A stretch of DNA of 64,000 bases from Candidatus Brocadia sp. (GCA_013360945.1 JABWAQ010000001.1:62001-126000); one strand, 5' to 3'; shown: positions 34,953-63,425, numbered from the stretch's first letter. The notes: a model not told the origin generated them from the letters alone. Numbers and translations are program-made.

Positions 34953-36155
34953 ATGATCCAATTATCTGCCTGTCTTATTGTCAAAAATGAGGCTGACCTT
35001 CTTCCGCGCTGTCTGGAGAGTATCCGCGCTTTCGTGGATGAAATTATTGTTGTGGACACAGGCTCAACTGATAACACTGTGGAAATGGCGCGAAACTATG
35101 GCGCACAGGTGCATTTCTTTTCGTGGATAGAAGACTTTTCAGCCGCCCGCAACAAATCGCTAAGTTACGTCCGTGGTGAATGGATCCTTTACATTGATGC
35201 TGATGAGGCCATTGACACTGTTAATGCCGCCAAGATCCGTCAGATAATTAACAGAAAGGACATTACGGCCGTTACCGTACGTCAGTGTATTCCTCAGCCG
35301 GTCGGCAACATTGCAACTGCCTTCTACAGTGAATATTGTCGTATATTTCGCTTTCATCCAGACATACGCTTCGAGGGGAAAATACACGAACAGATTCTGC
35401 CAGCCATCGAACGACTGGGCGGCCGTGTGTTACGAACAGACATCGTATTTCATCACTGGGCATATGCCGCCAATGGAGAAAAAAAACGGCGCCGAGCGGA
35501 GCGAAACCTACGTTATCTATTAGCCGAATTAGAGAGGGTTCAGGATGACCCCTTTTTATACTTTAACCTAGGTCTGACTTACCGCGAGCTTGGACAACAG
35601 GATGCTGCGATTCGCTCATTTCATCATGCACTTGACAGGGATGATGGCCGTATTAAACGAGAACTTATAGGACTGTGCCATTTAAACCTGGCTAAAATTT
35701 ATCTGGAATCTGGAAACGGTACAAAAGCTGCGCATCATTCGCAGATGTATGCCGCTTTCGATCCGACCAATCCTTTATCTGCTTATATGTTGGCAACCCT
35801 GGCAGTAGCTAACGAACAGTTTAACAAGGCAATCTTCTATCTCGAGACTGCAATACGAATTGCTAAAGGTGGGGCATTTTTCCATCCAAGTGTAGAATTG
35901 AATTTGGCCCAGATTTTTTTGGAGCTTGGCAGTTGCCATAGTGCAGTGGGTGATTTGGTACGTGCGGAACAGGACTTTGCCCGAGCCATAGAGTACAACT
36001 CTTCAATTGCATTGCCTTATCTGCTACGGGGAAATTGTCGCTTTATGCTTGGGGACAAAGCTGGAGCTAAAGAGATGTTTGGGCGTGCTTTGACCATCGA
36101 CTCCTCACTAAGAGACGCTAAAGATGGGCTCGCGTTGTGTTCTAGTCATGAATAA
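34953..36155 (+). CDS. GT2 glycosyltransferase fused to TPRs (between the flagellin genes)
   Basis: The N-terminal GT-A fold (about 1-210) begins 'QLSACLIVKNEADLLPRCLE' with 'IVVDTGSTDNT' and the metal-binding DxD region 'YIDADEAID'. The C-terminal half (about 215-395) is four to five TPRs ('FLYFNLGLTYRELGQQDAAI', 'SVELNLAQIFLELGSC'). This is the SunS-like GT2/TPR class that modifies peptides or proteins. It is related to the three tandem genes at 42081-47179. Its position next to flagellin suggests flagellin glycosylation (inference). The next gene starts 2 bp after its stop. Confidence 0.85.
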   Translation: MIQLSACLIVKNEADLLPRCLESIRAFVDEIIVVDTGSTDNTVEMARNYGAQVHFFSWIEDFSAARNKSLSYVRGEWILYIDADEAIDTVNAAKIRQIINRKDITAVTVRQCIPQPVGNIATAFYSEYCRIFRFHPDIRFEGKIHEQILPAIERLGGRVLRTDIVFHHWAYAANGEKKRRRAERNLRYLLAELERVQDDPFLYFNLGLTYRELGQQDAAIRSFHHALDRDDGRIKRELIGLCHLNLAKIYLESGNGTKAAHHSQMYAAFDPTNPLSAYMLATLAVANEQFNKAIFYLETAIRIAKGGAFFHPSVELNLAQIFLELGSCHSAVGDLVRAEQDFARAIEYNSSIALPYLLRGNCRFMLGDKAGAKEMFGRALTIDSSLRDAKDGLALCSSHE

Positions 36156-36157
36156 AA

Positions 36158-37609
36158 ATGAGAATAAAAGTGTCCATTGACAAATCTCTTCAACAAGGTA
36201 TCGATATGGTTAGGCATGGGATGTTGCATCAGGCCTTGTCACTATTCGAAAAGATTATCAATATCTATCCCAACGAACCTCGTGCACTCTTTAATGCTGC
36301 AGTTGTGCTTGATCTGCTCGGGAAGCGAGACTCTGCATTAATTATGCTGCGCCATAGCATAAAGGCTGATCCAGCTTTCGCTAACCCACATTATTACCTT
36401 GGTAGGTTGCATATGCAGGCTGGACGCTATACTGAAGCCTATCATGCATTTCGTGATACAATTGCCCGCGATGTGGATTTTGCCCCTGCTTATGAGGGGA
36501 TACGGATGGCATCTTCTGCTATGGGTCAATCTGTGAAAGCTGACAAAACAGACATTATTTTCTATACAGGTGGTCATCCATTTCATGGCAGGTCGTTGGA
36601 AGATAGAGGACTTGGGGGGAGCGAGAGTGCACTCATTTATATGGTGCGTGCCCTGGCTGCAAACGGAACTCGGATTCGCGTCTTTTGTAATTGTGACCGA
36701 CCTGGTAATTATGATGGTGTTCACTATGGCAATTTAGTTGACTTCCATATTTACCGTAAACTGTACTCATTACCAATTTTTGTATCGTCACGTTCGATGA
36801 GACCATTTAAGACAGCATTGCAGGCACAGGCAAGCATTTTGTGGATACATGACGCTGTCAATGTTCCATTCTTAGAAGACGAAGACCCAGTCCACTTGCA
36901 CCTTGATCGTATCTTTACCATTAGCAACTGGCAGAAGGACGAATGGTCACGTCATTTTGGTATTCCACATGAACGGTTTTTTCTGACGCGCAACGGGGTG
37001 GATTTGGCAACATTTAAGCCGGCCGAGAAAAGAGACAGGCATCGTCTTATTTATGTAAGTCGTCCCGATCGTGGACTGGACGTGCTGTTGGAACTGTTTC
37101 CACATATCCGGAAGTATGTCCCGGATGCCAGTTTGTATATCTATACGTATCAACTACCCGGCGATAGATTGGATGATCGTATTTATCAACTGATACAACA
37201 ACCCGGAGTGTATATGCGGGGGAGCTTGCCTAAAACATCACTGGCATCAGAGATGGCACTTGCTCGCCTTATGGTTTATCCTAGTACCTGGCGAGAAACA
37301 TCGTGCATTGCTGCTATTGAAGCCCAGGCATGTGGTGTACCGGTCGTTACCAGTACGCTGGCTGCTTTATCTGAAACAGTACACGATGGTGTTAGTGGAT
37401 ACCTCATTCCCGGAGACCCCCGTACAGTTAAGTTTGGACGTCGCTTCATAGAATCCGTAGTGACTCTTATGAACGATGATGAAGTGTGGCAAAAACTAAG
37501 CCAGAGTGCGCGCTACCGTTGTGAGTTGCTATATGATTGGAACGTAATTGCTAAAGAGTGGTTGGGGGAACTGACAAGACTGCTAGACACAAGGAAGCAT
37601 GTTTTGTGA
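36158..37609 (+). CDS. TPR + GT4 (GT-B) glycosyltransferase
   Basis: The reverse arrangement to its neighbour: three TPRs at the N-terminus (about 8-115, 'FNAAVVLDLLGKRDSALIML') followed by a GT-B fold (about 125-480) with 'GLGGSESALIYMVRALA' (nucleotide-sugar domain), 'FTISNWQKDEWSRHFG', 'RNGVDLATFKPAEKRDRHR' and the GT4 signature 'ETSCIAAIEAQACGVPVV'. It shares a transcript with the preceding GT2-TPR gene. It points toward flaG, which is on the opposite strand. Confidence 0.85.
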   Translation: MRIKVSIDKSLQQGIDMVRHGMLHQALSLFEKIINIYPNEPRALFNAAVVLDLLGKRDSALIMLRHSIKADPAFANPHYYLGRLHMQAGRYTEAYHAFRDTIARDVDFAPAYEGIRMASSAMGQSVKADKTDIIFYTGGHPFHGRSLEDRGLGGSESALIYMVRALAANGTRIRVFCNCDRPGNYDGVHYGNLVDFHIYRKLYSLPIFVSSRSMRPFKTALQAQASILWIHDAVNVPFLEDEDPVHLHLDRIFTISNWQKDEWSRHFGIPHERFFLTRNGVDLATFKPAEKRDRHRLIYVSRPDRGLDVLLELFPHIRKYVPDASLYIYTYQLPGDRLDDRIYQLIQQPGVYMRGSLPKTSLASEMALARLMVYPSTWRETSCIAAIEAQACGVPVVTSTLAALSETVHDGVSGYLIPGDPRTVKFGRRFIESVVTLMNDDEVWQKLSQSARYRCELLYDWNVIAKEWLGELTRLLDTRKHVL

Positions 37610-37697
37610 TGTTCAGGTAAGTTAAAGCAAAAAAGGTTAAAATAATTTGTATTTAACTGGCTTGCTTAATTAATGTCTTTTTGTTGTATTTCACAAC

Positions 37698-38561: not shown

Positions 38562-38996
38562 TTATCCACAAACATCAACTAATGAGGGTATATTATTAAC
38601 GTGTTTTCTCAGATTATTCACAAGATGCTTGCCTTCTTGAATTTTTTCCAGATCGAAGGTAACGTTTTTAATTCGTTGACTAATCAAAGATGTAATTTCA
38701 TCATTAAGGAAGGCAGTGGCATTTGATAGTTGTTGAATTTGTTGGAGTAGTTCACTATTTTGTAATTTCCATTTACTATTATCGGTAAAATCAGGACATT
38801 CTTTAATAGAATGGTAATATTTTACCAATGAATCAATCTTATCTATCAGCAAGCGCCTTTCTTTAATGTTCTCCTCTAAAGAGTTCTCGTAATAACCTTC
38901 CAACAATACCCTTTTGATTTCATGGGTATTATGGAGAAGGGCTTTATGATCTTTTAACAACGTCGTAAATAAGTCTATTATTTTCTCTCGATCCAT
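38562..38996 (-). CDS. FliT/FlgN-like flagellar chaperone (probable)
   Basis: An all-helical 144-aa protein with heptad pattern throughout. It sits between fliD and fliS, where fliT is normally found. FliT is the FliD chaperone; FlgN serves FlgK/FlgL. Sequence conservation in both families is too low to choose by eye. There is no membrane segment or signal peptide. Confidence 0.6.
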   Translation of the reverse strand: MDREKIIDLFTTLLKDHKALLHNTHEIKRVLLEGYYENSLEENIKERRLLIDKIDSLVKYYHSIKECPDFTDNSKWKLQNSELLQQIQQLSNATAFLNDEITSLISQRIKNVTFDLEKIQEGKHLVNNLRKHVNNIPSLVDVCG

Positions 38997-39089: not shown

Positions 39090-40865
39090 TTAAAACATGG
39101 TGTAGTAAGAGTTTGTGAGAGATGTAATCTGACTACCCTGAAGTACAGCGATGTTTAGTAAGTCTTGCATTTTATACAATTGTTGGCGATATAGATTTTC
39201 TTTAATCGATAAACGGTTTTCCATATTAGCTATACGGGTATCGATATCAGTTATCTGCTTACTGATCACATTCTTTGTCTCATCGATAATTGAACTTCTA
39301 TTAGAAGAGGAACCCTCTACAAAAGGTTTTAAGATGGTTTCAATCTTTTTAGCGACACCATTTGTGGAATTAAATAGATTTTCAACTGTTTTATAATTAG
39401 AGGCAATAGCATTATTAAATTTGGTTGTATCGGATAAACTGGCCTTTAGATTAGTGCTGATAGTAATACCAATTTCATTGAGATAATCAGGATTTCCTGA
39501 CGTAATACCGCTTATCTGTTCAGATAGTTTTTGAAATAATTGGCTTCTTAAGGAAGTGAAGGTTGTATTGCCTGCAAGTGGACCCCTTGTCTTGGTACTT
39601 ATATTTACACTGGATTTATCTTTTATGTATTCTGTTACTGCATTGAATGTATCCAGGAAACCGGTAATTTTGGATTGAATGGAGCTTGTATCCTGCTTAA
39701 CGGTTACGGCTGTATAGGTGTTATCTGTATAGTCTGTGACATTTGTATTTTTGAGGGTATATGTAATTCCATTTATCGTAAAGGTGTTTGTACTTTTGGC
39801 TATCTGGTCTGCTGTAGCAGAGCTGTTTATCGTAAAAAGTGCGTCTGCACCGTTTGTTTGGGTTGCTCCAGACAATTTCAGAGTATTCAATAAATTACCA
39901 CTCACATCCAATAGTGTAATTGAGTCCGTGCTTCCCGTAGCTTTAGATTTAATAATGACTTTATCGAGGGAACTATCATAAAACGCGTTTACATTGGCCG
40001 TGGAACTGTTTATTTTGGAGATAACATTATCTAATGTGTCTGTGTCAGTATTATAGGTAATTGATACGCCATTAATTTTAAAGCTGCCAGTAGCAGTACT
40101 TGTCAGCATTGAATCAAAATTGGCTTTGGACAGAAGCACATCGCTTTGTATGCCAGTGTTGCCGTTGCCTGTATAAGTACCAACCGTTATTTTTGCCTGT
40201 GTTAAAAATGGGTTTGTTCCTGTATCTGATATAACCAAATCCGTTGCTGCGCTCTTTTGTTCAATGGTAAATTTGTCTTCAGTTTTATTATAATATATAT
40301 TTGCATTTGCAGTGACATCGGTGTTGACCGCATCCATGAATGATTGAATCGTGCTATAATTTGATAAGGTGAAGGTTTGTCCATTGATAGTTACAGCTCC
40401 GTCAGGGGTATTTTCGAATCCTGCATCAGCAAAACTCTTTGACACATCAATGATGCCCGTACCAGGTGCTACCTTTGAGGCGCTTTTAGTAGCGGATTTG
40501 GTTATTAACTCTGCGGTGCTCTGTATTGAGGCGCCGGCGGCCAATTGTTTTACACGAATCTGGAATGCCCCAGTAGCCGCATTACTATCAACGGATGCAA
40601 TTACTTTCGTCTCATCGCTGGAACTGGATGTTCTCGAATTATATATAGAACTCGTGGTGGAATTGGATAAATCCCTTGCTGCTGTAAGGAGATCAGAAAG
40701 TTTTGTCTTTAAATCGCTATAAATAGTTAAACTGCTATTGAGACCGGTCTTTTTGGTATTCAGCGATGACAATGGCCTTCGTTCTAGTGCCATGAACTGA
40801 TTAACCAATAAGTTAAAACTTGAGCTTGTATTAAATGCAGTCGTTATGGAAGATGATATGGCCAT
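39090..40865 (-). CDS. fliD: Flagellar filament capping protein FliD (hook-associated protein 2)
   Basis: Forms the distal cap under which flagellin monomers fold. The N-terminal helix has 'SSFNLLVNQFMALERRPL', and the C-terminal one contains 'DIDTRIANMENRLSIKENLY' with 'RQQLYKMQDLL'. The middle is a Thr/Ser/Asn-rich beta domain (about 100-380) as in FliD. At 591 aa it is longer than the enterobacterial protein (about 470 aa) because of an expanded middle domain. It follows the flagellin terminator on the minus strand. Confidence 0.94.
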   Translation of the reverse strand: MAISSSITTAFNTSSSFNLLVNQFMALERRPLSSLNTKKTGLNSSLTIYSDLKTKLSDLLTAARDLSNSTTSSIYNSRTSSSSDETKVIASVDSNAATGAFQIRVKQLAAGASIQSTAELITKSATKSASKVAPGTGIIDVSKSFADAGFENTPDGAVTINGQTFTLSNYSTIQSFMDAVNTDVTANANIYYNKTEDKFTIEQKSAATDLVISDTGTNPFLTQAKITVGTYTGNGNTGIQSDVLLSKANFDSMLTSTATGSFKINGVSITYNTDTDTLDNVISKINSSTANVNAFYDSSLDKVIIKSKATGSTDSITLLDVSGNLLNTLKLSGATQTNGADALFTINSSATADQIAKSTNTFTINGITYTLKNTNVTDYTDNTYTAVTVKQDTSSIQSKITGFLDTFNAVTEYIKDKSSVNISTKTRGPLAGNTTFTSLRSQLFQKLSEQISGITSGNPDYLNEIGITISTNLKASLSDTTKFNNAIASNYKTVENLFNSTNGVAKKIETILKPFVEGSSSNRSSIIDETKNVISKQITDIDTRIANMENRLSIKENLYRQQLYKMQDLLNIAVLQGSQITSLTNSYYTMF

Positions 40866-40963: not shown

Positions 40964-41890
40964 TTATCTGAAAAGGCTTAGTATGGACTGTGGTCCTGAA
41001 TTTGCTTGTGCAAGCATTGCACTGGCTGTCTGTTGCAAGATCTGCAGTTTTGTTGCATTTAATTGCTCGTATGCCATATCAGCATCCTCAATTCGACTTC
41101 TGGCTGCCTCAGTGTTGGTTTTGGCTACTGTCAGACTTGTTTCCTGATAGCTCAACCTGTTTACTACAGAACCGATATAGCTCAACGCCTCTGATACATC
41201 AGCAATGGCATTATCTATCCTACCCATTAAGTTTTGTGCAGATGCTGATGAGCCTACCAATGAACCTGCAAGGGTGTTACCGCTGAGACGTGTACCACCA
41301 CTGGCATCAAGTCTTAGCTGAGTAGACCGATAACCTGTGTTGCCACTTTCAAGGCTGACGTTTCCTGTCTTCAAGAGGTTAAACTGCAATATATCGTTTG
41401 TAGAACTGTTTCCACCGCCAATCTGGAATTTAAACAACACGTTGCCTGCGGTTGCATTGCTCGAACCTGTACCGCTAAATATCGATTTGGAGTTCCATGT
41501 GGCCTGTGTGACTTCAAGATTAATTTGTGTGGCCAACGCAGCAAGTTCGGCTTTGATGGCGGTACGCTCAGATGTACCAAGCGAATCATCGGCTGCCTGA
41601 GTAGCCTTCGTCTTCATCTGTGTCAGGATATCAACGATATTATTCAAATGGCCTTCTGCAACTGATACCAGATTTTTGGCCGACCCTATGTTGTTTAATG
41701 CCTGACCAAGACCTTCCGCACGCGCATTAAATTTTTTGGCAATGGTATAACCAGCTGCATCGTCACCAGTAGTATTAATCCTCTTGCCAGTAGCCAATCT
41801 TAATTGAGAAATAGACAAACGCCCATTGACATCGGTTAACGACCTTAGGGCATTTAACGCATTAAGATTCGTATTAATTCTTGTACTCAT
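40964..41890 (-). CDS. fliC: Flagellin (copy 2)
   Basis: A 308-aa flagellin, very similar to copy 1 (about 90 % protein identity by eye, with the central region almost unchanged). It has the same conserved termini, e.g. 'LRLATGKRINTTGDDAAGY' and 'EDADMAYEQLNATKLQILQ'. A strong ribosome site (AAGGAGG) precedes the ATG. A sigma-28 promoter match lies about 120-150 bp upstream and a clear terminator follows. With copy 1 it forms an inverted repeat of about 0.9 kb around 6.25 kb. Confidence 0.96.
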   Translation of the reverse strand: MSTRINTNLNALNALRSLTDVNGRLSISQLRLATGKRINTTGDDAAGYTIAKKFNARAEGLGQALNNIGSAKNLVSVAEGHLNNIVDILTQMKTKATQAADDSLGTSERTAIKAELAALATQINLEVTQATWNSKSIFSGTGSSNATAGNVLFKFQIGGGNSSTNDILQFNLLKTGNVSLESGNTGYRSTQLRLDASGGTRLSGNTLAGSLVGSSASAQNLMGRIDNAIADVSEALSYIGSVVNRLSYQETSLTVAKTNTEAARSRIEDADMAYEQLNATKLQILQQTASAMLAQANSGPQSILSLFR

Positions 41891-42080: not shown

Positions 42081-43847
42081 TTATATGAGTTGCCCATTGA
42101 ACTGTTTTTTTAAGGTCGTGAGGTTTCTTGCTGCCTGATTACAACCGGGATCTAATGTAAGCGCTGTCTGGAATCCAATTATGGCGGATTCTAATTTGCC
42201 TAATCTGGCGTAACAAGTGGCAATATTGGTAATCGCAGTTGTATCAGATGGAGAGGTTTTAAGGTATTTCTCTAATAATTCGATGGCAGTGTCATATTCC
42301 TCTATCTCTATGCAGAGATTTCCAAGGTCGTGATATATACTGTTATTCGAGGGGTTGGATTTTAGCGTCATTTGGATAAAACTAATTGCACTCTCCCTGT
42401 TGCCGTATTTGCATTTAATTCTTTCCATAAGACATTTGAGTCCCAGATGGTCTGGATAAGAAGAAATTATTATCTTTATAGTCTCCTCAGCCTCTTTAAG
42501 TTTATCTGTTTGTATGAGTAAGTTTATTAGAAGAATATATGCATTTATGTTTTTGTTATCTTTCTGGATCAACCATTTAAAAGTATTGATGGCCTCATGG
42601 TGTTTCTTCTGCATAACTTGTATCTTCCCTAGTAAGAGGCGCATCGAATTGTCAGCAATGCCTAGTTTGACAGCAGTATTAGCTATATTTTCAGCCTCGT
42701 CCAGGCGGTTTTGAGAAGTATAGAGTTGAGTAAGGTTTGAGTAATATAGGGACACCTTATTATTGAGCTCCATCGCTTTTTTGTAAGCTATTTCGGCCTC
42801 ATTTTTATGTCCCAGACCCTCATAACATACTCCAATATTGTCATATGCTTTGTGTTCATAATAATAAGAATCTACAATAGACAGATTAAAGGAAGGATTT
42901 TTATTTTCTCTATCCTTCATAATGAGGTATTTTTTAAAATAATGTAAGGCATCATTAAATGCTGCCTTTTTCAACAGTATTTCTCCCATAATGAATAAAA
43001 GGTCAAGCGAATCAGGATTTCCATTAATCGCTTCCTGGCAGATTTCTTCAGCCCTGTTTAGTTGATTTGTATTTATTAAGGCATATACAAGGTCAATGTA
43101 TATTCTTTGTCTTTGGCTTTTGGCGTCAAAGTCTGTTTGTAATACAGACAGTCTTAATCCCTTTTCTCCCAATTCAATAACTTTATCAAAATTGTATTCG
43201 TTTCTGTAGTTTCGAATAAGGTTTGCCATGACAAAAATATTATTAGGGTTTTCTGCAAGCTGCTGTCGTAACAGGTCGCCAGTTCTTTTATATTTTTTTT
43301 GCATTTCGCTATCAGATAAATTGTATCCATAGTGATAGAACCTTATTTCAGAATGAATTGCCCTGCCTTCGAAGATGAGTTGATTATGTACAATTCCCTC
43401 GAAATGGGCTTTTCCCCTGCGAAATACCCTTGTGTAGTAGTGTTTTGATCGACCACCCGGAAGGTCACTATATATTGCAACAAATATAGCATTGTATGAG
43501 TTATCAGTTATTAATTTGTGTAAAAAGGGGATGTCAGTCTGTTCAATAGCCTCATCGGCATCGATTTGCAGAATCCAATCGCATGTTGCATAGTTCAGGG
43601 AGTGATTTCTCGCCTCACTAAAACTATTCTTCCAGGGATGATGGTATACTTTTGCAGCAAAGGATTGTGCAATTTCAATGGTTTTATCTGTCGAACCTGT
43701 ATCCACAATAATGATTTCATCTACAGCGTGTCTGATGCTTTGTAAACACTGGGCAAGAAATTTCTCTTCATTCTTAACGATCATGCATGCAGAGAGTGTG
43801 GGTCTGCCATTATTTGATATAGTTTGTTTGTTCGTAACATTCATCAA
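42081..43847 (-). CDS. GT2 glycosyltransferase with TPRs (tandem copy 1)
   Basis: A 588-aa protein with an N-terminal GT2 domain (about 10-240): 'TLSACMIVKNEEKFLAQCLQ', 'IIVDTGSTDKT' and the metal motif 'LQIDADEAIE'. About eight TPRs follow (about 255-580). It is closely related in sequence and layout to the next gene upstream (43896-45653), and more distantly to 45758-47179 and 34953-36155. It lies directly upstream of the flagellin 2 promoter region, in the same direction. Proposed role: addition of a sugar to flagellin or another surface protein. Confidence 0.85.
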   Translation of the reverse strand: MMNVTNKQTISNNGRPTLSACMIVKNEEKFLAQCLQSIRHAVDEIIIVDTGSTDKTIEIAQSFAAKVYHHPWKNSFSEARNHSLNYATCDWILQIDADEAIEQTDIPFLHKLITDNSYNAIFVAIYSDLPGGRSKHYYTRVFRRGKAHFEGIVHNQLIFEGRAIHSEIRFYHYGYNLSDSEMQKKYKRTGDLLRQQLAENPNNIFVMANLIRNYRNEYNFDKVIELGEKGLRLSVLQTDFDAKSQRQRIYIDLVYALINTNQLNRAEEICQEAINGNPDSLDLLFIMGEILLKKAAFNDALHYFKKYLIMKDRENKNPSFNLSIVDSYYYEHKAYDNIGVCYEGLGHKNEAEIAYKKAMELNNKVSLYYSNLTQLYTSQNRLDEAENIANTAVKLGIADNSMRLLLGKIQVMQKKHHEAINTFKWLIQKDNKNINAYILLINLLIQTDKLKEAEETIKIIISSYPDHLGLKCLMERIKCKYGNRESAISFIQMTLKSNPSNNSIYHDLGNLCIEIEEYDTAIELLEKYLKTSPSDTTAITNIATCYARLGKLESAIIGFQTALTLDPGCNQAARNLTTLKKQFNGQLI

Positions 43848-48881: not shown

Positions 48882-49117
48882 TTCGCCAATAGATTTTAAG
48901 GCTGGCTGGAGATTGAAATCTTTTCAATTTATGTGCCGAAAAGCGGCAAATATACGTAATCCTTTTCGTGTTTTTGGATATCAGTCGCTATTTATCATTG
49001 TTTATGGGATCAGTATATATGTTTATGCCTTTTTGTGTTATATTCTTCATTGAAAAGGTGAACCTTCATTACGTTTGTTAGTTTTCTAAATCCCTTGGAG
49101 ATGCTACTTTTATCCTT

Positions 49118-53576: not shown

Positions 53577-54568
53577 TCCTGCTTTTTTATGACTTCTGCC
53601 AGGTTTTAATGAAACGCACAGTAGTGTTAACCCTGACAGGGGTATTAATCCGGTTTTTTGAAAAATACCTTTGATAGCTCTATTAGAAGCAGAATATCAA
53701 TAGAAAAGCAATTTACACCAACATCAAATTCCGCCGGAGGAGATATATGTTTATGCATATTATCTGCCGCTCCTCTGACGTTTTTAACGCATTAGAACTT
53801 TAAACTATTAATTTTTCGCCCCTACAGGGTTATTTCCAAAAAACCAGAGTGTTGCTGACAGGGTTTAAAATCATGTCAGGGTTGTTGGATTGTTTTGCCA
53901 TGACCCTATGAACTGCTATAAAAAATTAAGAATGCATCCCAAAAAATATGTTTATTGTGCAAGACTTATCGAAAAGATATAGGGTTTATCAGAAAAAATT
54001 CTTTTAAATTGTTGAAATGTTGAACATTTGCAGATTGCAGGGTGTGAAATATTTAAACGCTATATCAAAAAATTGTATATGAAAAAACCCATAACCCTCT
54101 GTTACAGGTTGCAAGAGGGGGTTTGAATACAAAGCTGCTTGATATAGGGCAGGATTGGTTTGATTATAAGTTTAATGCTAAATTTATGTTAAGGAATTTC
54201 AATCCTGTAGGGTGCGTCCTGCGCCCCAAAAACAATGCAGTGTATGGATGGCGCTTAGGACGCACTCTGCGCAATTGGGGTAACAAGAAGGTCGTTGGGT
54301 TTTTGTCATTTAAAACCCAACCTAATTTAATTGTATAGGAATTTTCATTCTATTTATGCGTGTATCAGGGTGGCACGGACAAACTCTGTTTGTCCGTGTT
54401 CATCCCTAACTTGATGATGAGGAATTTCAAAGTTTTTGCCTCCCCCTTGATCCCTCTCACGAGGGGGACAACCGACTGTACCCCGCTGGCGGGGGTAGGG
54501 GGACGAAATTTTGTCGTAAAAGGTGTGCGTATAAGTCGCCGAAGACCTGCTTAAATACAGTAAGCATG
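53577..54568. other. 992-bp repeat-rich intergenic region
   Basis: No ORF with coding character (frames at 54123-54338 and 54360-54554 are made of repeat DNA). Inverted repeats include 54212-54224 with 54251-54265 (GTGCGTCCT/AGGACGCAC), 54374-54384 with 54388-54398 (CACGGACAAAC, 3-nt loop), CCCTC/GAGGG at 54452-54465 and CCCCGC/GCGGGG at 54481-54494. The near-palindrome CCCTGACAGGG occurs at 53631-53641, and related copies at about 53855, 53876 and 34908. It separates two minus-strand transcription units and should hold the promoter for the 983-aa gene. Confidence 0.7.
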
Positions 54569-57500
54569 TCACAAGTAATTTTTCTTTTGCATTCCGGATA
54601 CCTTTTCAAGATTTTGCCGCGCTTCTTTATACTGAGCATCTATCGATAGCGCTTTTTCAAAACAAATTCTCGCGCCATGGTATATATTCTTTTTAAAAAA
54701 TAAAACTCCCAGATTATTATGAATAGATGCGTCGCTGCCGTTCAATTCGATCGCTTTTTTGTAAACATCAATGGCGTTATCCATTTCTCCGCTCATTTGA
54801 TATGCAAGCCCAATACCACACAAAGCAGCCACATCGATAGGATTGGTGTTCAGCGCCTTTAAATAGAGTTCAATGGCCTCGTTAATACTTCCTGATTCCA
54901 GCGCCTGTTGACCCTGAGTGACGAGGTTGGCGTTAGCATCAACCAAACTACCGTGTAATTCAAGCAACTCCTCGTAGTTAATATTTGGCCATTTTTTTTT
55001 AAATTTAGCCCCATTGACGGATAGATTGTTTCGATAATCAACTTTATTTTCAATGAAGGTTTGGCTCCTGTAGTGATGAATGAACACACTTTCATCAACC
55101 ATGATAGCATAACCCTTTTCCCGAACCTTTAAACATAAGTCATCGTCTTCATAATTTCCTGTGCCAAAGGATTCATCTAAACCTCCCACCTCCTCATAAA
55201 GCGATTTTTTCATCAGGATCGCAAAACCGGCAATGCGGTATCGTGGAGTCAGCCGCCCGTTGTATACCCTTTTTATCTTTTGAGCAAAGATATGAAACCC
55301 GTTTTCTTCGGTATAGGGAATATCCCTTACCATCTGTCTGCCACTGATAGAGTTGGTGATGGGTCCCACCATGCCAATATTTTCATTCATTTGGAGACTT
55401 TCCACAAGACTCTCCAGCCAACCATCAGAAACCAGGACGTCATTATTGAGCAACATTATGTAATCTCCACTTGCAACTGAGACACCCTGATTATTACCGG
55501 CTGCAAAACCCTTGTTTTCTTGATTTTCAATAAGTTTGTAGCCAGTTCCAGTATGTTTTGAACATGAATTTGGATATTCTTTAACCAATTTGCGGAGGTA
55601 TGCTGCGGTGCCATCAGTTGATCCATTATTCACAAAAATGATCTCGTGTGGGTAGTTTGTGTGTTGCTGGATTGAACTGACGCACTGTTGAGTGTATTTT
55701 AAGGCATTGTAAGTGAGGATGATTATAGAGACGAGCTTTTGCGGTTTGCAAGCCAACGATCCGGCAGAAATCGTATTGGATATGTGATAACACTGTATTT
55801 TGTTATTTTCAGTAATTATCGTTGAGCCGTCTTCCCTAATAATAATATCCGGTTTAATCTTACCAATCCACTTGCTATGCAATCGCTGAATATTTTCTGA
55901 AACTTTTGAAAAACGTTCCGGGCCGCTTTTTGACTCGTGATGAATTACAACACTCTCAGGCTGGTAAACAAGTTTCCACCCCTTCTCCTGAAGTTTAAAG
56001 CATAAATCGACATCCTCGTATCCATTCCAGTAACCCTCATCAAATCCTCCAACCTCATTGAAAGCGGATTTGCGTATAAGCAAACAGGCTGCAGTAAGTG
56101 TCTGATAGGTTCTTGATTGGTTTGCTTCAGGCAGATTGGCAAGATCATTCATATAAATATGTGTAGCTAATAAAGGGTCGTTTAGACTTTTGTTATCAAC
56201 AATAACGACCCCTGCATGTTGTATAGTCTCATTAGGGAATAAAAGTTTACTTCCTGCCGCTGCCACAGAATCGTCTCTCATGAGAATTTCGAAAAGTGGT
56301 TTCAGCCATCCTTTTTTTGGTTCAGTATCGTTGTTGAGAAAGAGGAGATAGTCTGCAGAAGCTTTTTGTGACCCCTGATTACAAGCTCTGGCAAACCCCA
56401 TATTTTTTTCATTGATGATGATTTTAACATCGTTTTGTATGTGGTTAAGAAATTCTTTTGTGCCGTCTGCTGAGGCATTGTCAACAATAATAACTTCGTA
56501 TAGAGATGGTTTTTCTGGTGAATTTGCAAAAATTGCCTTGAGGCATTTTTCTGTATACTCAAGTTTGTTGAAAACAGGAATTATAATAGAAACAACCGGT
56601 TTCTTTATATCTGCTAAACACGCTCTTTTACTAGTATGGGGAAATTGGATAAATTCAAGGTTAGGGTTAGCTTCTATCGTATAAAGAAGTTTATGCAATG
56701 TGTTCTTATCCCATTTAACTGAAAAACTCTGGAATATCTCATGTGTGGTGAACTGTTTCATCATACGCATAAAATTCTGAAAAAGTATTTGCTGATGCTG
56801 CCCGATATTCCATACAGATGGCATAAGTTCGATAATATAATTTATTGGAAATGGTATGCCACGTTTGTTCATTGCCTCAACTGCAAACTCGCAGCACAGA
56901 TTATTAATCAGTATTTGATACTGATCTTCAGTTGGAATGCCTCCAACGCAAGCACCCATGAAAGGGGCAATATGTTGCCTTGATGTATATTTTCTGAATA
57001 GATACATCTGTTCTTTATCACTGATCTCTATATTATGACTTACCGAAGATGGTGAATAATGAAGTGTACCTAAGACTTTTCGAATGAAATGAAACTTTCC
57101 TTCGTGTGAGATACGGATAAAGAAATCTTGATCGCCGCGAATTATTAACGATTCATCAAAGTACCCGTACTTATCGTGTAGTGACCTTCTCCACATCGGC
57201 TGACTACCAACCTGTGTACAGAAAAGCAATGCTGTTCTAGAAAAAGGTGGCCATTGCCAGTTTCCATTATCCTCGGAAAGATTTTCGGTATCAATAATTT
57301 CGTTATCGACAACTTTTTGTTGATCCGCATGTATAAGTATTATCTCGGGATGTGTATCAAGATAGTTACTAAAAATTTCGAGTGCAGTAGATTTTAAGCG
57401 ATCATCTGTGTTGGCGTTGGTAATATATTCTCCTTTAGCCACCTTAATGCCACGATTCCACGCTTCATAAATGGTTTCGCGCCCTTCGGTATGGAAATAA

Positions 57501-57715
57501 ACAATGTTGTCGTAATATTTTTGGAATTCTTCAACTATAGTACGTTCGTTTTGTTGAGAGCCGCTATCAATAACAATAATCTCCAGCGTACCTGTCTTGT
57601 ATAATGTTTGGTCTATCAGACCTTGCAAGCAACACCTGATAAATCTTTCGGAGTTGTATGTAGATACGATTGCCGAGACCTTAATTTGAGAGTTTTCTTT
57701 AGGTAAGTATAGCAT
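54569..57715 (-). CDS. Triple GT2 glycosyltransferase with C-terminal TPRs
   Basis: A 1048-aa protein with three GT-A domains. The first (about 10-250) has 'VSAIVSTYNSERFIRCCLQG' and 'NANTDDRL'. The second (about 373-610) has 'VSIIIPVFNKLEYTEKCLKA' and 'FLNNDTEP'. The third (about 661-905) has 'VSIIILTYNALKYTQQCVSS' and 'LLNNDVLVSDGW'. Each has the acceptor-side 'ED/DxD'-type region (e.g. 'GNYEDDDLCLKVREKGY'). Three TPRs close the protein (about 925-1035). Long O-antigen-type or protein-glycan polymerases have two or three such modules. It is 9 bp downstream of the 749-aa gene. Confidence 0.87.
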   Translation of the reverse strand: MLYLPKENSQIKVSAIVSTYNSERFIRCCLQGLIDQTLYKTGTLEIIVIDSGSQQNERTIVEEFQKYYDNIVYFHTEGRETIYEAWNRGIKVAKGEYITNANTDDRLKSTALEIFSNYLDTHPEIILIHADQQKVVDNEIIDTENLSEDNGNWQWPPFSRTALLFCTQVGSQPMWRRSLHDKYGYFDESLIIRGDQDFFIRISHEGKFHFIRKVLGTLHYSPSSVSHNIEISDKEQMYLFRKYTSRQHIAPFMGACVGGIPTEDQYQILINNLCCEFAVEAMNKRGIPFPINYIIELMPSVWNIGQHQQILFQNFMRMMKQFTTHEIFQSFSVKWDKNTLHKLLYTIEANPNLEFIQFPHTSKRACLADIKKPVVSIIIPVFNKLEYTEKCLKAIFANSPEKPSLYEVIIVDNASADGTKEFLNHIQNDVKIIINEKNMGFARACNQGSQKASADYLLFLNNDTEPKKGWLKPLFEILMRDDSVAAAGSKLLFPNETIQHAGVVIVDNKSLNDPLLATHIYMNDLANLPEANQSRTYQTLTAACLLIRKSAFNEVGGFDEGYWNGYEDVDLCFKLQEKGWKLVYQPESVVIHHESKSGPERFSKVSENIQRLHSKWIGKIKPDIIIREDGSTIITENNKIQCYHISNTISAGSLACKPQKLVSIIILTYNALKYTQQCVSSIQQHTNYPHEIIFVNNGSTDGTAAYLRKLVKEYPNSCSKHTGTGYKLIENQENKGFAAGNNQGVSVASGDYIMLLNNDVLVSDGWLESLVESLQMNENIGMVGPITNSISGRQMVRDIPYTEENGFHIFAQKIKRVYNGRLTPRYRIAGFAILMKKSLYEEVGGLDESFGTGNYEDDDLCLKVREKGYAIMVDESVFIHHYRSQTFIENKVDYRNNLSVNGAKFKKKWPNINYEELLELHGSLVDANANLVTQGQQALESGSINEAIELYLKALNTNPIDVAALCGIGLAYQMSGEMDNAIDVYKKAIELNGSDASIHNNLGVLFFKKNIYHGARICFEKALSIDAQYKEARQNLEKVSGMQKKNYL

Positions 57716-57724
57716 TGGATACTT

Positions 57725-59974
57725 TTATTTCAACTTTACGCAAATTCTCTGTAATAGCTTTAGTGCATCTTCATGGTTAGGGCGTAAAGTTAATTCTTTC
57801 TCTAGGGCAAATAATGCATCATTTATCCTGTCAAGTTGAAATAAACACATTGCTTTTGAATATTGAATACCGGAAATCCAGTAATCGAGAACGGTTAATG
57901 AATCAAATATGGTTAATGCTTCTTCATATCTTTTTTCATAAAATAAATTGTCGCCTTGTTGATAGAACTTCAGAAGCCACGATGTCCATAATTGAATCCT
58001 CTTGCCCATGTAATTTAAATGGTCAGTATCAGGTTGTTCATTCCGTGCAAGGCAAATATATTTCATTGCGGTAAATGGGTCACTAAAGTCCTCTAAAAAA
58101 ACGCCTGCTATATAGAGGGCAAGACCACCCAGTGCACGGTAACGCAATGATTTCAAATGTTGAGGAACCGCGGTTTCTTTGAAAAATCGCTCCAATACCT
58201 CTTTCTTTGTATTATATATATCATGCCATGTATCAGGTTTGCTTACATCAGATCCAACATACTGCCTGTGCTTTGATATGATGCCAGGGATATATGAAAT
58301 CTGAGTTCTAATTCCAAGTCGCACCCAAATTGCAAAATCTTTACACCTGGCAGGCAACCAAGTGTTCTTAAATAGGTCAGCCTGATCAAGTGCTGATCTT
58401 CTAAAGAATGCTGACTGCATAGGGATAGTATCCTCTACACATAAAACACGCTCATAGTTGTATGAGATAGGACCGGGCATTGCTTTTTTTAGTATTCTCC
58501 CTTGATCATCGATCACATAATATTCACCATAAATGGCACCAATGCCGGGATGTCTTGAAAAGTGCTGTACAGTCCACTGAACGGCGTTAAGCAATAATTC
58601 ATCGCTACAATTACATATGCCAATAATATCTCCTGTGCATTTCCGAATGGCTTCGCTCAATTTCTCTCCACCATCCGAACTGGGTGCCAAAACCCATTTA
58701 ATTCGGTTGCCATAACGTTCGAGGAGTTCCACTGTCTCCTTCGCAGATCCACTGTCTTGTACAATACATTCGATATTTGGATAGTTCTGTAAAAGTACGC
58801 TTTCTACACAATTTTTAATGTAATGTAAACCATCTTGACGGGTTGTGATAATTATAGAAACTACTGGATGTTCAAGCGTATGGATATTGAGACCTGAAGT
58901 TTGTTCTTTTTCCTCCGATGAGACCTTGTTTGTTCGTGATTGGTTATCCCATCTTGCTTGTAGTATTATCTTCTCATTCAGTTGATCGGCAGCAAGTCCC
59001 CAGTTATCATCATTGAATATGATCGGGCGTTTGTCTTTGGACATTTTGGTTGCCAGCATACGTAATTCTTCATCCGTCAACCTTCGAATATTATCGTGTT
59101 TCAGTCTATTCTCTAGCTTATCAGCTTCTTCAGGAATAAAACCAGAAGTATGTTCGATATGGTAAATACGCATAGGTTCACGGAGAATTTCTTCTACTGC
59201 GCCGCTATGATGTGCCATATAGCAAAGGACAGAGTCCAGATGGAAGGAATACATATCAAATTCAGGATATCCGAGAAGACTGTGCCAGTGTTCACGCGCC
59301 ATAAGTTGGAAATCTCCGCTGGCATTTGTATATAGAGGTGTTATACCCACACTATTCACAAAATCAGGATTTACATCAACATCGTGTGGATATGTCTCAA
59401 TATAATTGTCTATTTTTAGATTGTGAATTCCGTATCTATCATAAATACGGATAACATTTTCATTACAAAAAGTCAGTTGTTCATCAATCGAGGCTTCCAA
59501 TGGGATATCTGACGAGACATCGTACCGGTTGACACGATACGATTTCCCTTTCATCATTTTGTTGGAAGCAAGAAAGGCGAAAAGTTCATTGGAGAATAAA
59601 ATATCAATATTCGTAGCAAGTACAAAATGACCATGCGAACGTCGAATCCCAACGTTCTTGCCAATCATTTGGTAAAGTGGTAGACGTTCAGCATGTCTAT
59701 ATCGCCCATGAATTTCTGAAGGAACTTCTATGATACGAACTGTGCAAAAATTGTGTTGTACAGGCCATGATAATGCTTGGGCAAGACCTGGTTTATCTGG
59801 TAATGGATTCCATTCGACAATTATCAATTCTGCTTTCAGTTGATATTTTTCCGATTGTGCAAGTATTCCATTTACAAAAATTTGTATGCGATGCAGAAGA
59901 TTTCCGCCATGGTTGTCATTTCGTGCAGTAACTACTATGCTAATATATGGTTGTGTATTCATACATTCTATCAT
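57725..59974 (-). CDS. Two-module glycosyltransferase with C-terminal TPRs
   Basis: A 749-aa protein. The N-terminal module (about 8-290) is a GT-A-like domain ('ISIVVTARNDNHGGNLLHRI', 'GIRRSHGHFVLATNIDILFS'). The second is a GT2 domain (about 372-600) with 'VVSIIITTRQDGLHYIKNCV' and 'CNCSDELL' in place of a classic DxD. Two or three TPRs follow (about 680-745). The ATG at 59962 ('MNTQPYIS') is an equally likely start. It belongs to the same unit as the triple GT2 gene (9-bp gap). Confidence 0.82.
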   Translation of the reverse strand: MIECMNTQPYISIVVTARNDNHGGNLLHRIQIFVNGILAQSEKYQLKAELIIVEWNPLPDKPGLAQALSWPVQHNFCTVRIIEVPSEIHGRYRHAERLPLYQMIGKNVGIRRSHGHFVLATNIDILFSNELFAFLASNKMMKGKSYRVNRYDVSSDIPLEASIDEQLTFCNENVIRIYDRYGIHNLKIDNYIETYPHDVDVNPDFVNSVGITPLYTNASGDFQLMAREHWHSLLGYPEFDMYSFHLDSVLCYMAHHSGAVEEILREPMRIYHIEHTSGFIPEEADKLENRLKHDNIRRLTDEELRMLATKMSKDKRPIIFNDDNWGLAADQLNEKIILQARWDNQSRTNKVSSEEKEQTSGLNIHTLEHPVVSIIITTRQDGLHYIKNCVESVLLQNYPNIECIVQDSGSAKETVELLERYGNRIKWVLAPSSDGGEKLSEAIRKCTGDIIGICNCSDELLLNAVQWTVQHFSRHPGIGAIYGEYYVIDDQGRILKKAMPGPISYNYERVLCVEDTIPMQSAFFRRSALDQADLFKNTWLPARCKDFAIWVRLGIRTQISYIPGIISKHRQYVGSDVSKPDTWHDIYNTKKEVLERFFKETAVPQHLKSLRYRALGGLALYIAGVFLEDFSDPFTAMKYICLARNEQPDTDHLNYMGKRIQLWTSWLLKFYQQGDNLFYEKRYEEALTIFDSLTVLDYWISGIQYSKAMCLFQLDRINDALFALEKELTLRPNHEDALKLLQRICVKLK

Positions 59975-60065
59975 ATTATTTTAATTATTGATTTATTTGC
60001 AATAATAGTTTGAAGTATTTATGCAGGGGTTTAAGGTTGCTGTTCTCATTATCTCTTTTCGTGGA

Positions 60066-63000
60066 TTATTGTACTATTTTCCTTGTGAGCAATGCATATG
60101 CATGCTCCAATATTTCCATCAGTTCCGTATTACTGTCATTTGATGCTTTTTCCCAAACCATAACAAGCAATGGTAGCGTTGCTGCAGGAAATGTATTGCC
60201 GTGAGTCTTCAAGCATGCTGAGACATCCGCCTCTTGCAGAAGTGTTTTCAGTGTGGTAGCGGCAGCTTGTAATTCTTCGCATGATATGGGAGTTGTGCGT
60301 TTGAGTATCTGCCCTAAATGCTTTCTCATAAGCAATTCATCTGACAGGAAGCCATCCGTTGGTTTTGATATTGTTAAAGAAGAGATTGATTGTATTGCAG
60401 GCGCGTTGTATTTAGGGAATGTGAATGGGCCTGGTTTTTCATTCAAGCTAAACCAGCGCCAATGTGCTTTCAATGTAAATAGTTTATCACCAAGAATATG
60501 ACGTAGTTCAGAGACTCGGGTCTGATCGTTATTAAACTCTGTGTGTAAACTATGATCGGCTGAAAACAGGGAAAGATTGTTTCGGGTAGTGAAATCAAGA
60601 ATAGAAACTGCTTGTTCGACATTGGAATCAACATCCCCTAACCTTAAGCGTGGCCCATCCCAATTATTTCCTTTCCACAGAGAATTCTCACCATAGAGGG
60701 CTGTTGATGCAGGGCTATATCGACTATCGGAGATATCATGGATAATCACCACGTGGTTACGTTTCACAATCAAAGGCAGGATTTTACCAAGGATGCATTC
60801 AGCAACTTCAAAACCATGCGCATCCCAAAATACTAATATCCTTTGAGCGTTACACAGCGCATTTTGATAATCGAAAGTGCGAATATCAGCTTGATAAACC
60901 TTAAGAGGGTCGAACCAATTCTTTGGTACAACCTGCAATATATTTGATAAACTTTCGTTCCATGAAGCCGACTGACAGATGCTAGTAATCTGGCATCTCC
61001 GGGGTTTCAACTGGTTAGCAACTTCGGTGAAAGCACAAGTAGAGTTTCCATATCCACGTCCCAGTTCCAGAATTGTGTCAGGCATATATTCTAAAGCAAA
61101 GGCCATTAATTGTCCCCATTGATGAAGGGGTAGGTCTGCAGAATGGCCAACTGCCTCAGACAATGCCTGTATATGTTTGTAGGACTTTGCCAGTGTTAAA
61201 CGGTGATTCCAGTATGCCTTAGCTGCAAACAATTCATTTGTATGGGCAAGATCGTTTTCGGGTTTATGGATCGCAACTTCCTGGCTTTGCTTAAGACCGA
61301 CTGGTTTATCAGAGCCTATAATAGGGGTTTGTGGTACTTCACCTGAAATTGAAATAGAATTGTTTTGATTTTGAATGATGCATGAATTATTTTGAATGGT
61401 TAGTTCTTCCGACAATACTTTTTCTGTTTGTTTGAACGATCCTTTTTGGTCTTGAGAATGTTTAAACAAATACTGTGACTTGGAATGGAAAGAAGCATCT
61501 ATTTTCACTCCTAAAAGAATCCAGCTTGGATAAATCCAGAATAGTTGGCTTGTATTCGAGGTAATCCAATCCCACTCTTCAGCGATTGCCTCCATTACTC
61601 CACGTGTAGATTCGAACTGGTCGAATATTGGAGGACAAAAGTCATGCCACATAACGATACCACCATCCCTAATTAATTGAAAGGCCTTTCGGGTATCACT
61701 GATAACGATATCCTTTGTGTGCCCACCATCTATTAAGATAGTATCAAAAAAATTATGAGGATAATTGGAAATATCCCATTCTCTGCCATCGCAATAAATT
61801 TGGCAGACTCTATGCCCCAATTTTTTTTCTAAGTAGTATCTACCTATGAATCCAACAGAATCTGTTTGATAATGGTCTTTTTCAGGTAAACCAATTTCTT
61901 TTGCCCATCTTCGAACGGAGGCAGCCTCTTCAGGATAATAGCCATAAGCTGGTTGATTTTTTGAATCCTTTTCACCATGAGGTAGATTGATTGTCCAAAC
62001 CGTAGCATCACATTCCTCGAGACAACAGAGTACTCCTGAACCTTGCCACGTACCAAATTCCAGATGTCTGTGTGGTTGAAAATTTCGGTATACGTATCGC
62101 AATATTGGGAAATCATCGATTTCCATCTTCCATTCGGGCAATGGTTTAATAAGTGAGGCCTTTGGATAATTGATCGGTGTGTTAAATTTCAGTTTCTTAT
62201 GTAAATCCTTAACAGAAACTATGGGAATATTGACGTTGCATCCTTGTCCGAATTTTATTGGTAAATTTTGAGACAACTCAAAATCTTCTAATACCTGTGA
62301 AATTTCTTCATCATTTTTGTTTTGTTTTAAATAATCAGAATAAAGCCTCTTTGCATCTTCTATTTTCCCGGAGATTGTCAGGATTTTTATACAATTCAAT
62401 ATCGTATAGCGGTCATTGGGATTAACTTCAAGGGCTTTTTCAAAATGGTTTACAGCCTTCTCAAAATTTCCTATCTGCCAGTACCACACACCCAGATTAT
62501 TGTATGCACCTGCAGGTGTAGGGTCTATCTCAACTGCCTTTGTAAAAGAACTGAAGCTCCCCTCCATATCACCTTTATTAAATAGATATTCTCCTTTTAA
62601 GTTTTCCCATTTCCCCGTGGGATTTAATTGGGAGTATTTTGCGATACTCTCCTTCTGTAGATCGTTAAGGCTAATTGAAACGTTATCTCTTGTTTTTGTA
62701 AGGTCAAACCAGTTAAATTCAATATCATCCTTGCCAAAATTACGGCTCCAGTTCAAACTGAAATTATTGCCAAACAATGCTTTTGTTTTTTCGTCGTCAT
62801 ACCACTCACACCATGGTGTACGTTCACCATCCGTCATCTTACCAAACTCGGCAAAATTGCGTGCTCCAGATATTTCATAACGTTCCTTGGGGTATGCCAA
62901 CATTACAATCTTGCCGCCAATGCGTAAAAACTGTGTCATGGCATGTGCTTGTTTTTGGGTAAAATCAAATGGAGCATTAATCAGTGAGCCAATACACAGA

Positions 63001-63425
63001 AACACATCAAACATATTCTCAAAATGAAAGTCAAAGAAATCATTGATAAAATAGAAATTTGCTGTGATTCCCTTCAAATGACAGATACGTTTAAGCAACT
63101 TGAGATTGTCTTCCACAATATCAACGAAGGTAACCCGCGCACCATGTTGAGCAAAAAAAATACCATCAATACCTACACCGGGTCCAATATCAGCGATTTC
63201 ACAATTTAAAAACATATCTTTATAGAGTTCCTGATACCAGCCTCTAACATCTGGAACGCTGGTTTGTTCCCTGCATTCATCCCAGAAGGTCAACAGTTTT
63301 TCATCAGACCAGTTTAACATTTCAGATGAAAAAACACGTCCCTGCCGCGTTGACGGTATTTCTTTCCATTTTTCACGCAGTTGCAATGAAAAAAACGGCA
63401 AATTTATATATTTTGTTGTATCCAT
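60066..63425 (-). CDS. Triple SAM-methyltransferase-like protein with TPRs
   Basis: A 1119-aa protein with a class I SAM methyltransferase (about 40-265; 'EIADIGPGVGIDGIFFAQHG'), TPRs (about 272-375; 'GAYNNLGVWYWQIGNFEKAV'), a second methyltransferase-like domain (about 435-650; 'RHLEFGTWQGSGVLCC' and 'FDTILIDGGHTKD', Methyltransf_24/CmcI style) and a third (about 765-960; 'TILELGRGYGNSTCAFTEVA', more degraded). It likely O-methylates sugars or peptides in series. It is 21 bp downstream of the propeller gene and 91 bp upstream of the 749-aa gene, in the same direction. Confidence 0.85.
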   Translation of the reverse strand: MDTTKYINLPFFSLQLREKWKEIPSTRQGRVFSSEMLNWSDEKLLTFWDECREQTSVPDVRGWYQELYKDMFLNCEIADIGPGVGIDGIFFAQHGARVTFVDIVEDNLKLLKRICHLKGITANFYFINDFFDFHFENMFDVFLCIGSLINAPFDFTQKQAHAMTQFLRIGGKIVMLAYPKERYEISGARNFAEFGKMTDGERTPWCEWYDDEKTKALFGNNFSLNWSRNFGKDDIEFNWFDLTKTRDNVSISLNDLQKESIAKYSQLNPTGKWENLKGEYLFNKGDMEGSFSSFTKAVEIDPTPAGAYNNLGVWYWQIGNFEKAVNHFEKALEVNPNDRYTILNCIKILTISGKIEDAKRLYSDYLKQNKNDEEISQVLEDFELSQNLPIKFGQGCNVNIPIVSVKDLHKKLKFNTPINYPKASLIKPLPEWKMEIDDFPILRYVYRNFQPHRHLEFGTWQGSGVLCCLEECDATVWTINLPHGEKDSKNQPAYGYYPEEAASVRRWAKEIGLPEKDHYQTDSVGFIGRYYLEKKLGHRVCQIYCDGREWDISNYPHNFFDTILIDGGHTKDIVISDTRKAFQLIRDGGIVMWHDFCPPIFDQFESTRGVMEAIAEEWDWITSNTSQLFWIYPSWILLGVKIDASFHSKSQYLFKHSQDQKGSFKQTEKVLSEELTIQNNSCIIQNQNNSISISGEVPQTPIIGSDKPVGLKQSQEVAIHKPENDLAHTNELFAAKAYWNHRLTLAKSYKHIQALSEAVGHSADLPLHQWGQLMAFALEYMPDTILELGRGYGNSTCAFTEVANQLKPRRCQITSICQSASWNESLSNILQVVPKNWFDPLKVYQADIRTFDYQNALCNAQRILVFWDAHGFEVAECILGKILPLIVKRNHVVIIHDISDSRYSPASTALYGENSLWKGNNWDGPRLRLGDVDSNVEQAVSILDFTTRNNLSLFSADHSLHTEFNNDQTRVSELRHILGDKLFTLKAHWRWFSLNEKPGPFTFPKYNAPAIQSISSLTISKPTDGFLSDELLMRKHLGQILKRTTPISCEELQAAATTLKTLLQEADVSACLKTHGNTFPAATLPLLVMVWEKASNDSNTELMEILEHAYALLTRKIVQ

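Follow-up and report, generated by a model that had tools for sequence, protein, structure and literature searches.

A probable flagellin-glycosylation island with TPR-bearing, partly multi-module transferases in a Brocadiaceae planctomycete

A block of genes for TPR-bearing glycosyltransferases (GTs) and methyltransferases adjoins two flagellin genes in the DNA analysed here, which raises the question of the acceptor that these enzymes modify. The stretch of 64,000 nucleotides (the window) corresponds to bases 62001-126000 of a 137,325-bp contig in a genome of 3.85 Mb. Among named organisms, its GT2-TPR genes match anammox planctomycetes most closely, Candidatus Kuenenia hertensis being one of them, and a genome of Candidatus Brocadia was also matched; judged from these matches, the host is therefore a member of the Brocadiaceae (anammox planctomycetes). 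The locus is very likely a flagellin-glycosylation island of this planctomycete, consisting of a GmaR/SunS-type core and of distal enzymes that would extend and O-methylate the glycan. What the data show directly is its gene content and linkage, the conservation of active-site residues, its promoter elements, the action of purifying selection and the fusion and fission of modules.

The left half of the window contains flagellar basal-body and regulatory genes. Flagellin 1, gtA and gtB follow each other on the plus strand, and fliD, flagellin 2, gtC, gtD and gtE, followed by the genes for large proteins, are located on the minus strand (Table 1). Both genes predicted to encode TPR-fused transferases between the flagellins were recovered (gtA, GT2-TPR; gtB, TPR-GT4). 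Nine further TPR-fused units had been counted after flagellin 2. This number had to be lowered to seven, since three of the ten ORFs carry no TPR fusion, namely the decayed genes 47309 and 48195 and the radical-SAM gene 49163. The island extends about 4 kb beyond the window, up to TPR-csrA-fliW-flgL-flgK, and is embedded between flgH-flgK-flgL-fliW-csrA on one flank and flagellin-fliD on the other. From the distal part of the island to the flgI-flgH group all genes lie on a single strand with mostly short gaps. The 1-kb gap upstream of p983 was considered as a missed gene and rejected, as the minus strand shows no long frame there, no ORF of 90 aa was listed and the sequence is partly repeat-derived.

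Table 1. Features of the island and its flanks; positions are counted from the first base of the window unless contig L005, beyond the window, is named.
Feature	Position	Strand	Evidence or remark
Flagellin 1, 308 aa	33787..34713	+	Flagellin_N/C E 1e-28/3e-24; genus orthologues 83-90% identical
gtA, GT2-TPR, GmaR/SunS-like, core	34953..36155	+	GT2 E 6e-21, TPR
gtB, TPR-GT4 (GT-B type), core	36158..37609	+	Glyco_trans_1_4 E 2e-19 and TPR
Small protein after fliD, FliS/FliT-like chaperone by position only	38562..38996	-	Conserved beside fliD
FliD, filament cap	39090..40865	-	FliD_C E 1e-32
Flagellin 2, 308 aa, main candidate acceptor	40964..41890	-	Flagellin profile matches
Sigma-28-type promoter of flagellin 2, TAAAC...CCGATAA	42015..42041	-	Motif, conserved in orthologues
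gtC, GT2-TPR, core	42081..43847	-	GT2 E 2e-25; orthologues 64-77% identical
gtD, GT2-TPR, core	43896..45653	-	GT2/TPR profile matches; AlphaFold model pLDDT 92
gtE, GT2-TPR, core	45758..47179	-	GT2 E 5e-26
Decayed DUF268-type methyltransferase (47309), no TPR	47309..47932	-	C-terminus lost
Decayed GT1_2 glycosyltransferase (48195), no TPR	48008..48974	-	In-frame stop and frameshift
Radical-SAM protein (49163), B12-binding-like N-terminus	49163..50599	-	Radical_SAM E 2e-14; B12-binding below cut-off
p983, real length 938 aa: TPR - GT4 - Methyltransf_11 - GT1_2	50625..53441	-	
Sigma-54-type -24/-12 promoter TGGCACAAACATTGCG	53543..53558	-	Upstream of p983
Non-coding gap	53577..54568		Dispersed repeat (about 54323-54414, some 40 genomic copies) and hairpin repeat (54200-54277)
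p1048: three GT2 - TPR	54569..57715	-	GT2 summed E 2e-81
p749: N-terminal half without family - GT2 - weak TPR	57725..59974	-	
p1119: Methyltransf_25 - TPR - Methyltransf_24 - probable third methyltransferase	60066..63425	-	
Beta-propeller-like protein, 325 aa	63447..64000, runs on past the window	-	Gene next to p1119
Nucleotide-sugar dehydrogenase	451-1764 on L005		TIGR03026, 363 bits (cut-off 190)
Second radical-SAM protein	1774-3039 on L005		
TPR protein	3032-4156 on L005		
csrA, fliW, flgL, flgK, flgI, flgH	After the TPR protein on L005		

The profile matches of the transferases far exceed what chance would give, with E values from 1e-16 to 1e-81 for GT2 and mostly of 1e-9 or lower for TPR. 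Among solved structures, the GT domain of gtD matched GmaR best (PDB 22ao, E 2e-36), followed by SunS (E 4e-28). The residues D95-x-D97 (DxD), H153, H171 and R187 are invariant across 48 GT2-TPR sequences from several phyla. The AlphaFold model of gtD shows a GT-A domain with a long TPR superhelix behind it (pTM 0.84), and a Foldseek search with this model returned SunS and ThuS at the top and the TPR domain of O-GlcNAc transferase next. A GT2 domain of this subfamily with the DxD and active-site residues, together with a C-terminal TPR superhelix, characterizes GmaR/SunS-type GT2-TPR transferases, and both are present here. The scores against the SunS equivalog (TIGR04195) were 86-100 bits, below its curated cut-off of 350.

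GmaR of Listeria, which is described as transferring GlcNAc to flagellin, has the order GT2 - TPR - antirepressor, with an N-terminal GT2 of the same family as here and the TPR behind it, and its role is the glycosylation of flagellin (PMC9638930). However, GmaR is a single enzyme with an antirepressor acting on MogR, whereas four GT2-TPR paralogues (gtA, gtC, gtD, gtE) are found here and no antirepressor is claimed. The peptide S-glycosyltransferases SunS and ThuS share the GT2 subfamily and the fold with these enzymes, but the present genes are flagellin-linked, no bacteriocin gene was seen and an S-linkage is not implied. The domain order TPR-then-GT-B of gtB and p983 corresponds to that of FlmG of Caulobacter, the TPR of which is the flagellin-binding module: flagellins are bound by its isolated TPR domain and not by its isolated GT domain (PMC7591256). 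FlmG differs in transferring pseudaminic acid, whereas the present genome lacks a true NeuB, and p983 carries an additional fused methyltransferase and a second GT module. Binding of flagellin by a TPR is also reported for Maf-1 in work cited in PMC13317340, which likewise describes TPR-bearing GT2 proteins of Clostridium as predicted flagellin transferases.

The large distal proteins had been described as having 983, 1048, 749 and 1119 aa with two or three catalytic modules each. The first of these lengths was replaced by 938 aa with a start at Met46, since this is where the orthologues begin and since the first 45 codons of the longer frame contain a conserved sigma-54 element. Three clear catalytic modules each are present in p983 and p1048 and two clear methyltransferases in p1119, where a putative third methyltransferase has motif I but a match of E 0.097 only. 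In p749 one GT2 is clear, and the N-terminal half is an unproven second module, with a best match of E 0.03 and a single-sequence AlphaFold model (pLDDT 29) that was discarded. The radical-SAM protein 49163 is, from its sequence, a possible C-methyltransferase or sugar-modifying enzyme; at E 1e-10, the sister islands yielded no homologue of it. The genes 47309 and 48195 were rejected as functional genes on account of truncation, stop and frameshift when compared with intact relatives. The DUF268-type methyltransferase is intact in G007, G008, G012 and L140 (252-260 aa), and the GT1_2 gene, which is interrupted here by an in-frame stop close to its N-terminus and by a frameshift around position 48,240, is intact in relatives at about 370 aa. 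A UDP-GlcNAc 2-epimerase gene, present at this spot in several relatives, was not detected in the corresponding stretch.

The original prediction had found no nucleotide-sugar synthesis gene. A nucleotide-sugar dehydrogenase of the UDP-glucose/GDP-mannose-dehydrogenase family is located in the same gene run 450 bp beyond the window, and the apparent lack of a donor gene is therefore an artefact of the window edge; several sugar-nucleotide pathway genes occupy the same slot in relatives. The absence of a Maf-type transferase stood up, as a search with PF01973 (MptE-like) gave no match anywhere in the genome, and transfer by Maf was rejected for this genome. For nonulosonate synthases (NeuB/PseI/LegI) the genome yielded a single match of 31.7 bits, of a kind found in nearly all relatives, whereas true NeuB proteins (> 270 bits) are encoded within the G001 and G009 islands and, in G004, close to the flgL side. 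A nonulosonic-acid donor was rejected here for want of a true NeuB. Since neither a true NeuB nor a Maf match is present, the sugars are probably hexoses or HexNAcs, and one of them is perhaps a uronic acid.

Flagellin 2 is modestly enriched in serine and threonine in its centre (25.6% in residues 141-222, compared with 18.6% in the N-terminal part), and 10 of 21 central Ser/Thr positions are conserved in at least 95% of 23 flagellin sequences. The small protein encoded after fliD gave no significant match in Pfam or NCBIfam. The flagellin-2 orthologues examined carry a matching sigma-28-type element at a nearly constant distance of 151-163 nt upstream. Sigma-54-type sites with at most one mismatch to the consensus were found seven times in the window, compared with 2.06 expected. 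One of them is situated 117 nt upstream of Met46 in p983. Each of the eight genomes compared has such an element ahead of the orthologous TPR-GT4 gene, the distance being 86-117 nt in seven of them and 216 nt in G009. The genes for the flagellins, FliD, FlgL and each of the five core GTs are intact here and under purifying selection, with omega values (NG86) of 0.01-0.26, among them 0.10-0.22 for the core GTs (gtC 0.11-0.22) and 0.01-0.08 for the flagellins; these values are rough, as several dS exceed 1.

Taken as a flagellin-glycosylation island, the locus would work in the cytoplasm, before export. The TPR superhelix of gtA and gtC-gtE, and the TPR of gtB, would recognize flagellin, and the five enzymes would attach the first sugars to Ser/Thr of its short central domain, probably within residues 141-222. 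The proteins p983, p1048, p749 and p1119 would next extend the glycan and O-methylate it. The order of sugars is a prediction, and the methyl groups would be placed on the glycan rather than on the protein. Ordinary nucleotide sugars would serve as donors, one of them probably oxidized to a uronic acid by the dehydrogenase past the window, and no nonulosonic acid is predicted in the glycan. Expression would follow the flagellar hierarchy, with sigma-54 first and sigma-28 afterwards. Under this reading, an intact, selected and promoter-linked island would mean that glycosylated filaments are produced by Brocadiaceae under certain conditions.

A total of 28 relatives, ten of which share the genus, were searched for flagellin and island genes. 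Flagellin was found at > 84% identity in nine of the ten same-genus genomes and in G012, which belongs to another genus, with weaker matches in more distant relatives. The genes gtB and gtC/gtD/gtE occur in exactly these ten close flagellin-positive relatives. Wherever the flanks of flagellin-positive Brocadiaceae were read, gtA-gtE adjoin the flagellins, with gtA beside flagellin 1, and in the more distant G026 GT2-TPR genes are no more than about 3 kb away from a flagellin. In G010, G011 and G013-G017, gtB and gtC-gtE are absent, as are FliD and an above-threshold FlhA. This loss of the core where flagellin, FliD and FlhA are missing favours flagellin as the target of the core enzymes. A flagellin-linked glycosylation and methylation island with TPR-bearing transferases, as originally proposed, is supported.

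One could suppose that gtA-gtE glycosylate flagellin and that p983, p1048, p749 and p1119 build another surface glycan, sharing the location only. The same-genus G010 keeps p1048-type and giant proteins, with intact TPR/GT proteins of 2723 aa and 1549 aa, and retains flgH-flgL-fliW-csrA-TPR, with no detectable flagellin, FliD or FlhA. The genes absent from G010 form one contiguous block in the present genome, and a missing contig could therefore explain their absence; otherwise the giant proteins may serve another acceptor. Finding the block in non-flagellated relatives next to S-layer or polysaccharide genes had been named as a refutation of the original prediction; applied to the core genes, this test spoke for flagellin, and, given the giants of G010, it is not decisive for the distal modules. 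The giants of G010, the two decayed island genes, the modest Ser/Thr enrichment of flagellin and the scarcity of flagella on anammox cells (PMC11104535) are points that weigh against the island reading. Separate targets are also suggested by p749, without a homologue in sister islands at E 1e-10, by p1119, without a full-length homologue in the relatives searched, and by G002, G004 and G008, in which the flgL-side and flagellin-side parts of the island lie at separate places. On the other hand, the part of p1048 with two C-terminal GT2 domains and the TPR was found in nine of the ten same-genus relatives and, in those with a flank that was read, belongs to the flgL/csrA-side island, the TPR-GT4 and GT1_2 genes adjoin gtE in most relatives, and the sigma-54 element at the TPR-GT4 gene is conserved. 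Altogether, separate targets for the distal proteins appear rather unlikely, although this alternative survives better than the others.

The core is conserved, and some 30-55 kb of differing content, hypervariable next to csrA-TPR, lie between the same flanks in G001, G005 and G009. The island of G009 encodes NeuB, a CMP-transferase, a UDP-GlcNAc 2-epimerase, a PIG-L deacetylase, a formyltransferase and a DegT aminotransferase as well as epimerases, a GHMP kinase, a nucleotidyltransferase and a sulfotransferase; G005 and G001 contain other gene sets, and a weak Maf-type (PF01973) domain belongs to that of G001. In G002, G004, G007 and G008, two adjacent genes encode the TPR-GT4 part and the GT1_2 part of p983; the two parts are fused with a methyltransferase region between them here and in G009, and form part of a 1814-aa protein in G001. 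Counterparts of p1048 have 676, 1190, 1526 and 1549 aa, and proteins of 2492 aa and 2723 aa occur in G001 and G010, respectively. Since modules fused in one species are neighbouring genes in another, a shared pathway is supported, and this natural series, fused here and separate in sister species, may show how multi-step protein glycosylation is organized.

The large proteins had been likened to an assembly line in which TPRs hold the acceptor. That the TPRs hold flagellin is suggested by homology, linkage and domain fusion, with FlmG as precedent, and the stepwise action of the fused modules is what we infer. In its full form, the proposal would have the TPR dock flagellin or its export complex, while at least two GT modules and a methyltransferase of the same chain attach sugars one after another and cap them; species would diversify their filament glycans through the fusion, separation and exchange of modules (938 to 2723 aa). 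We put this forward tentatively, as one possibility that is less likely than the island reading as such. A specific docking TPR shared by p983 and p1048 was considered and set aside, as their TPRs are 43% identical to each other and 37-38% identical to a consensus TPR, a small excess; the comparison also gave 52% identity to the p1048 TPR of G009. This excess is only suggestive.

As methylated O-glycans have a precedent in anammox bacteria, on the S-layer of Kuenenia stuttgartiensis, where a six-sugar, multiply methylated O-glycan occupies 13 sites (PMC5088730), and as the island holds several methyltransferases, it might instead make the methylated O-glycan of an S-layer or another envelope glycoprotein. 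A locus of this kind would be kept irrespective of flagella, whereas the core GTs are missing in flagellin-less members of the family (G011, G013-G017); location and promoters are flagellar, and the GT2-TPR family is flagellin-linked across phyla. An S-layer target is accordingly improbable. Flagella are hardly ever seen on anammox cells, and whether their flagellar genes work has been called unclear (PMC11104535). This rarity, the two broken genes here and the broken core frames in G004 and G007 might speak for a decaying remnant, left over in cells without flagella. It is the least probable reading of all, given the intact and selected flagellins, FliD, FlgL and core GTs and the conserved promoters; where the genomes are drafts, sequencing errors may account for the broken frames.

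Flagellin-glycosylation islands are a known kind of locus, and the islands of Clostridium, Geobacillus, Aeromonas and Campylobacter are likewise hypervariable blocks of GT, methyltransferase and sugar-nucleotide genes inside a flagellar cluster; methyltransferases are reported for that of Geobacillus (PMC5109656). However, no Maf match and no nonulosonate synthase are found here, and the multi-module fusions of GTs and methyltransferases are not mentioned for those islands in the text available. Several catalytic modules organized together for glycan assembly are described for enzymes of the Klebsiella O-polysaccharide (PMC11231755); those serve the lipopolysaccharide O-antigen, whereas the present ones show flagellar linkage and TPRs. 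Fused enzymes as large as these, with 938-1119 aa in the present genome and as many as 2723 aa in relatives, are new. So is the host lineage, for which no earlier report was found; a literature search, with most subscription journals outside its range, returned no paper on flagellin glycosylation in anammox bacteria.

As flagellin-linked GT2-TPR proteins occur across many phyla, they provide a simple marker of flagellin glycosylation by routes other than Maf. The GT2-TPR profile was used to fetch 79 loci; in 40 of them a flagellin-like match was found within a flank of at most 10 kb, and a few of these matches may be FlgL or other hook-associated homologues. The background would be roughly a few per cent or less, given one to a few flagellin loci per genome. 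All 12 genomes tested among the remaining loci carry flagellin-family genes elsewhere, by a family model that also detects FlgL.

In the same-genus genome G010 no flagellin, FliD or FlhA was detected. The locus G010:C2:43357-66133 (L135, L142) retains flgH-flgL-fliW-csrA together with a TPR gene, and intact TPR/GT proteins of 2723 and 1549 amino acids are also kept there. In the Kuenenia-like genomes (L010, L011) a sugar-nucleotide cluster adjoins the glycosyltransferase genes gtE and gtD. No flagellin was found inside the fetched flank of these two genes, and flagellin-family genes are present elsewhere in the same genomes. Core reading frames are broken in two draft relatives, namely gtA, fliD and flgK in G004 (L126, L137) and gtC, with seven stops, in G007 (L134), which reflects either sequencing error or decay.

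Within the island, p983 and p1048 are separated by a 1-kb gap in which a dispersed repeat, with about 40 additional copies in the genome, adjoins a hairpin repeat, and this gap is likely a recombination point. The radical-SAM protein, for which no close homologue was found among the sister islands examined, could be a source of unusual methyl groups.

Features located in the window
Feature	Position	Strand	Remark
Sigma-54-type site (predicted)	7802	+	
Sigma-54-type site (predicted)	11748	+	
Sigma-54-type site (predicted)	14046	+	
Sigma-54-type site (predicted)	31785	+	
Radical-SAM protein	49163-50599		B12-binding-like N-terminus
Hairpin repeat	54200-54277		GGTGCGTCC...GGACGCAC
Dispersed repeat	54323-54414		~90 nt

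A second flagellin of 277 amino acids, unrelated (37% identical), is encoded at G000:C39:567-1400 (L007) on a 6.7-kb contig. It may be foreign to the genome, since the assembly is listed with 5.3% contamination.

Three of the additional sigma-54-type sites (7802, 11748 and 31785) are followed, at a distance of roughly 20-75 nt, by ORFs in the flagellar region, the last one preceding a GAF/HD-GYP gene, which is itself located ahead of flagellin 1.
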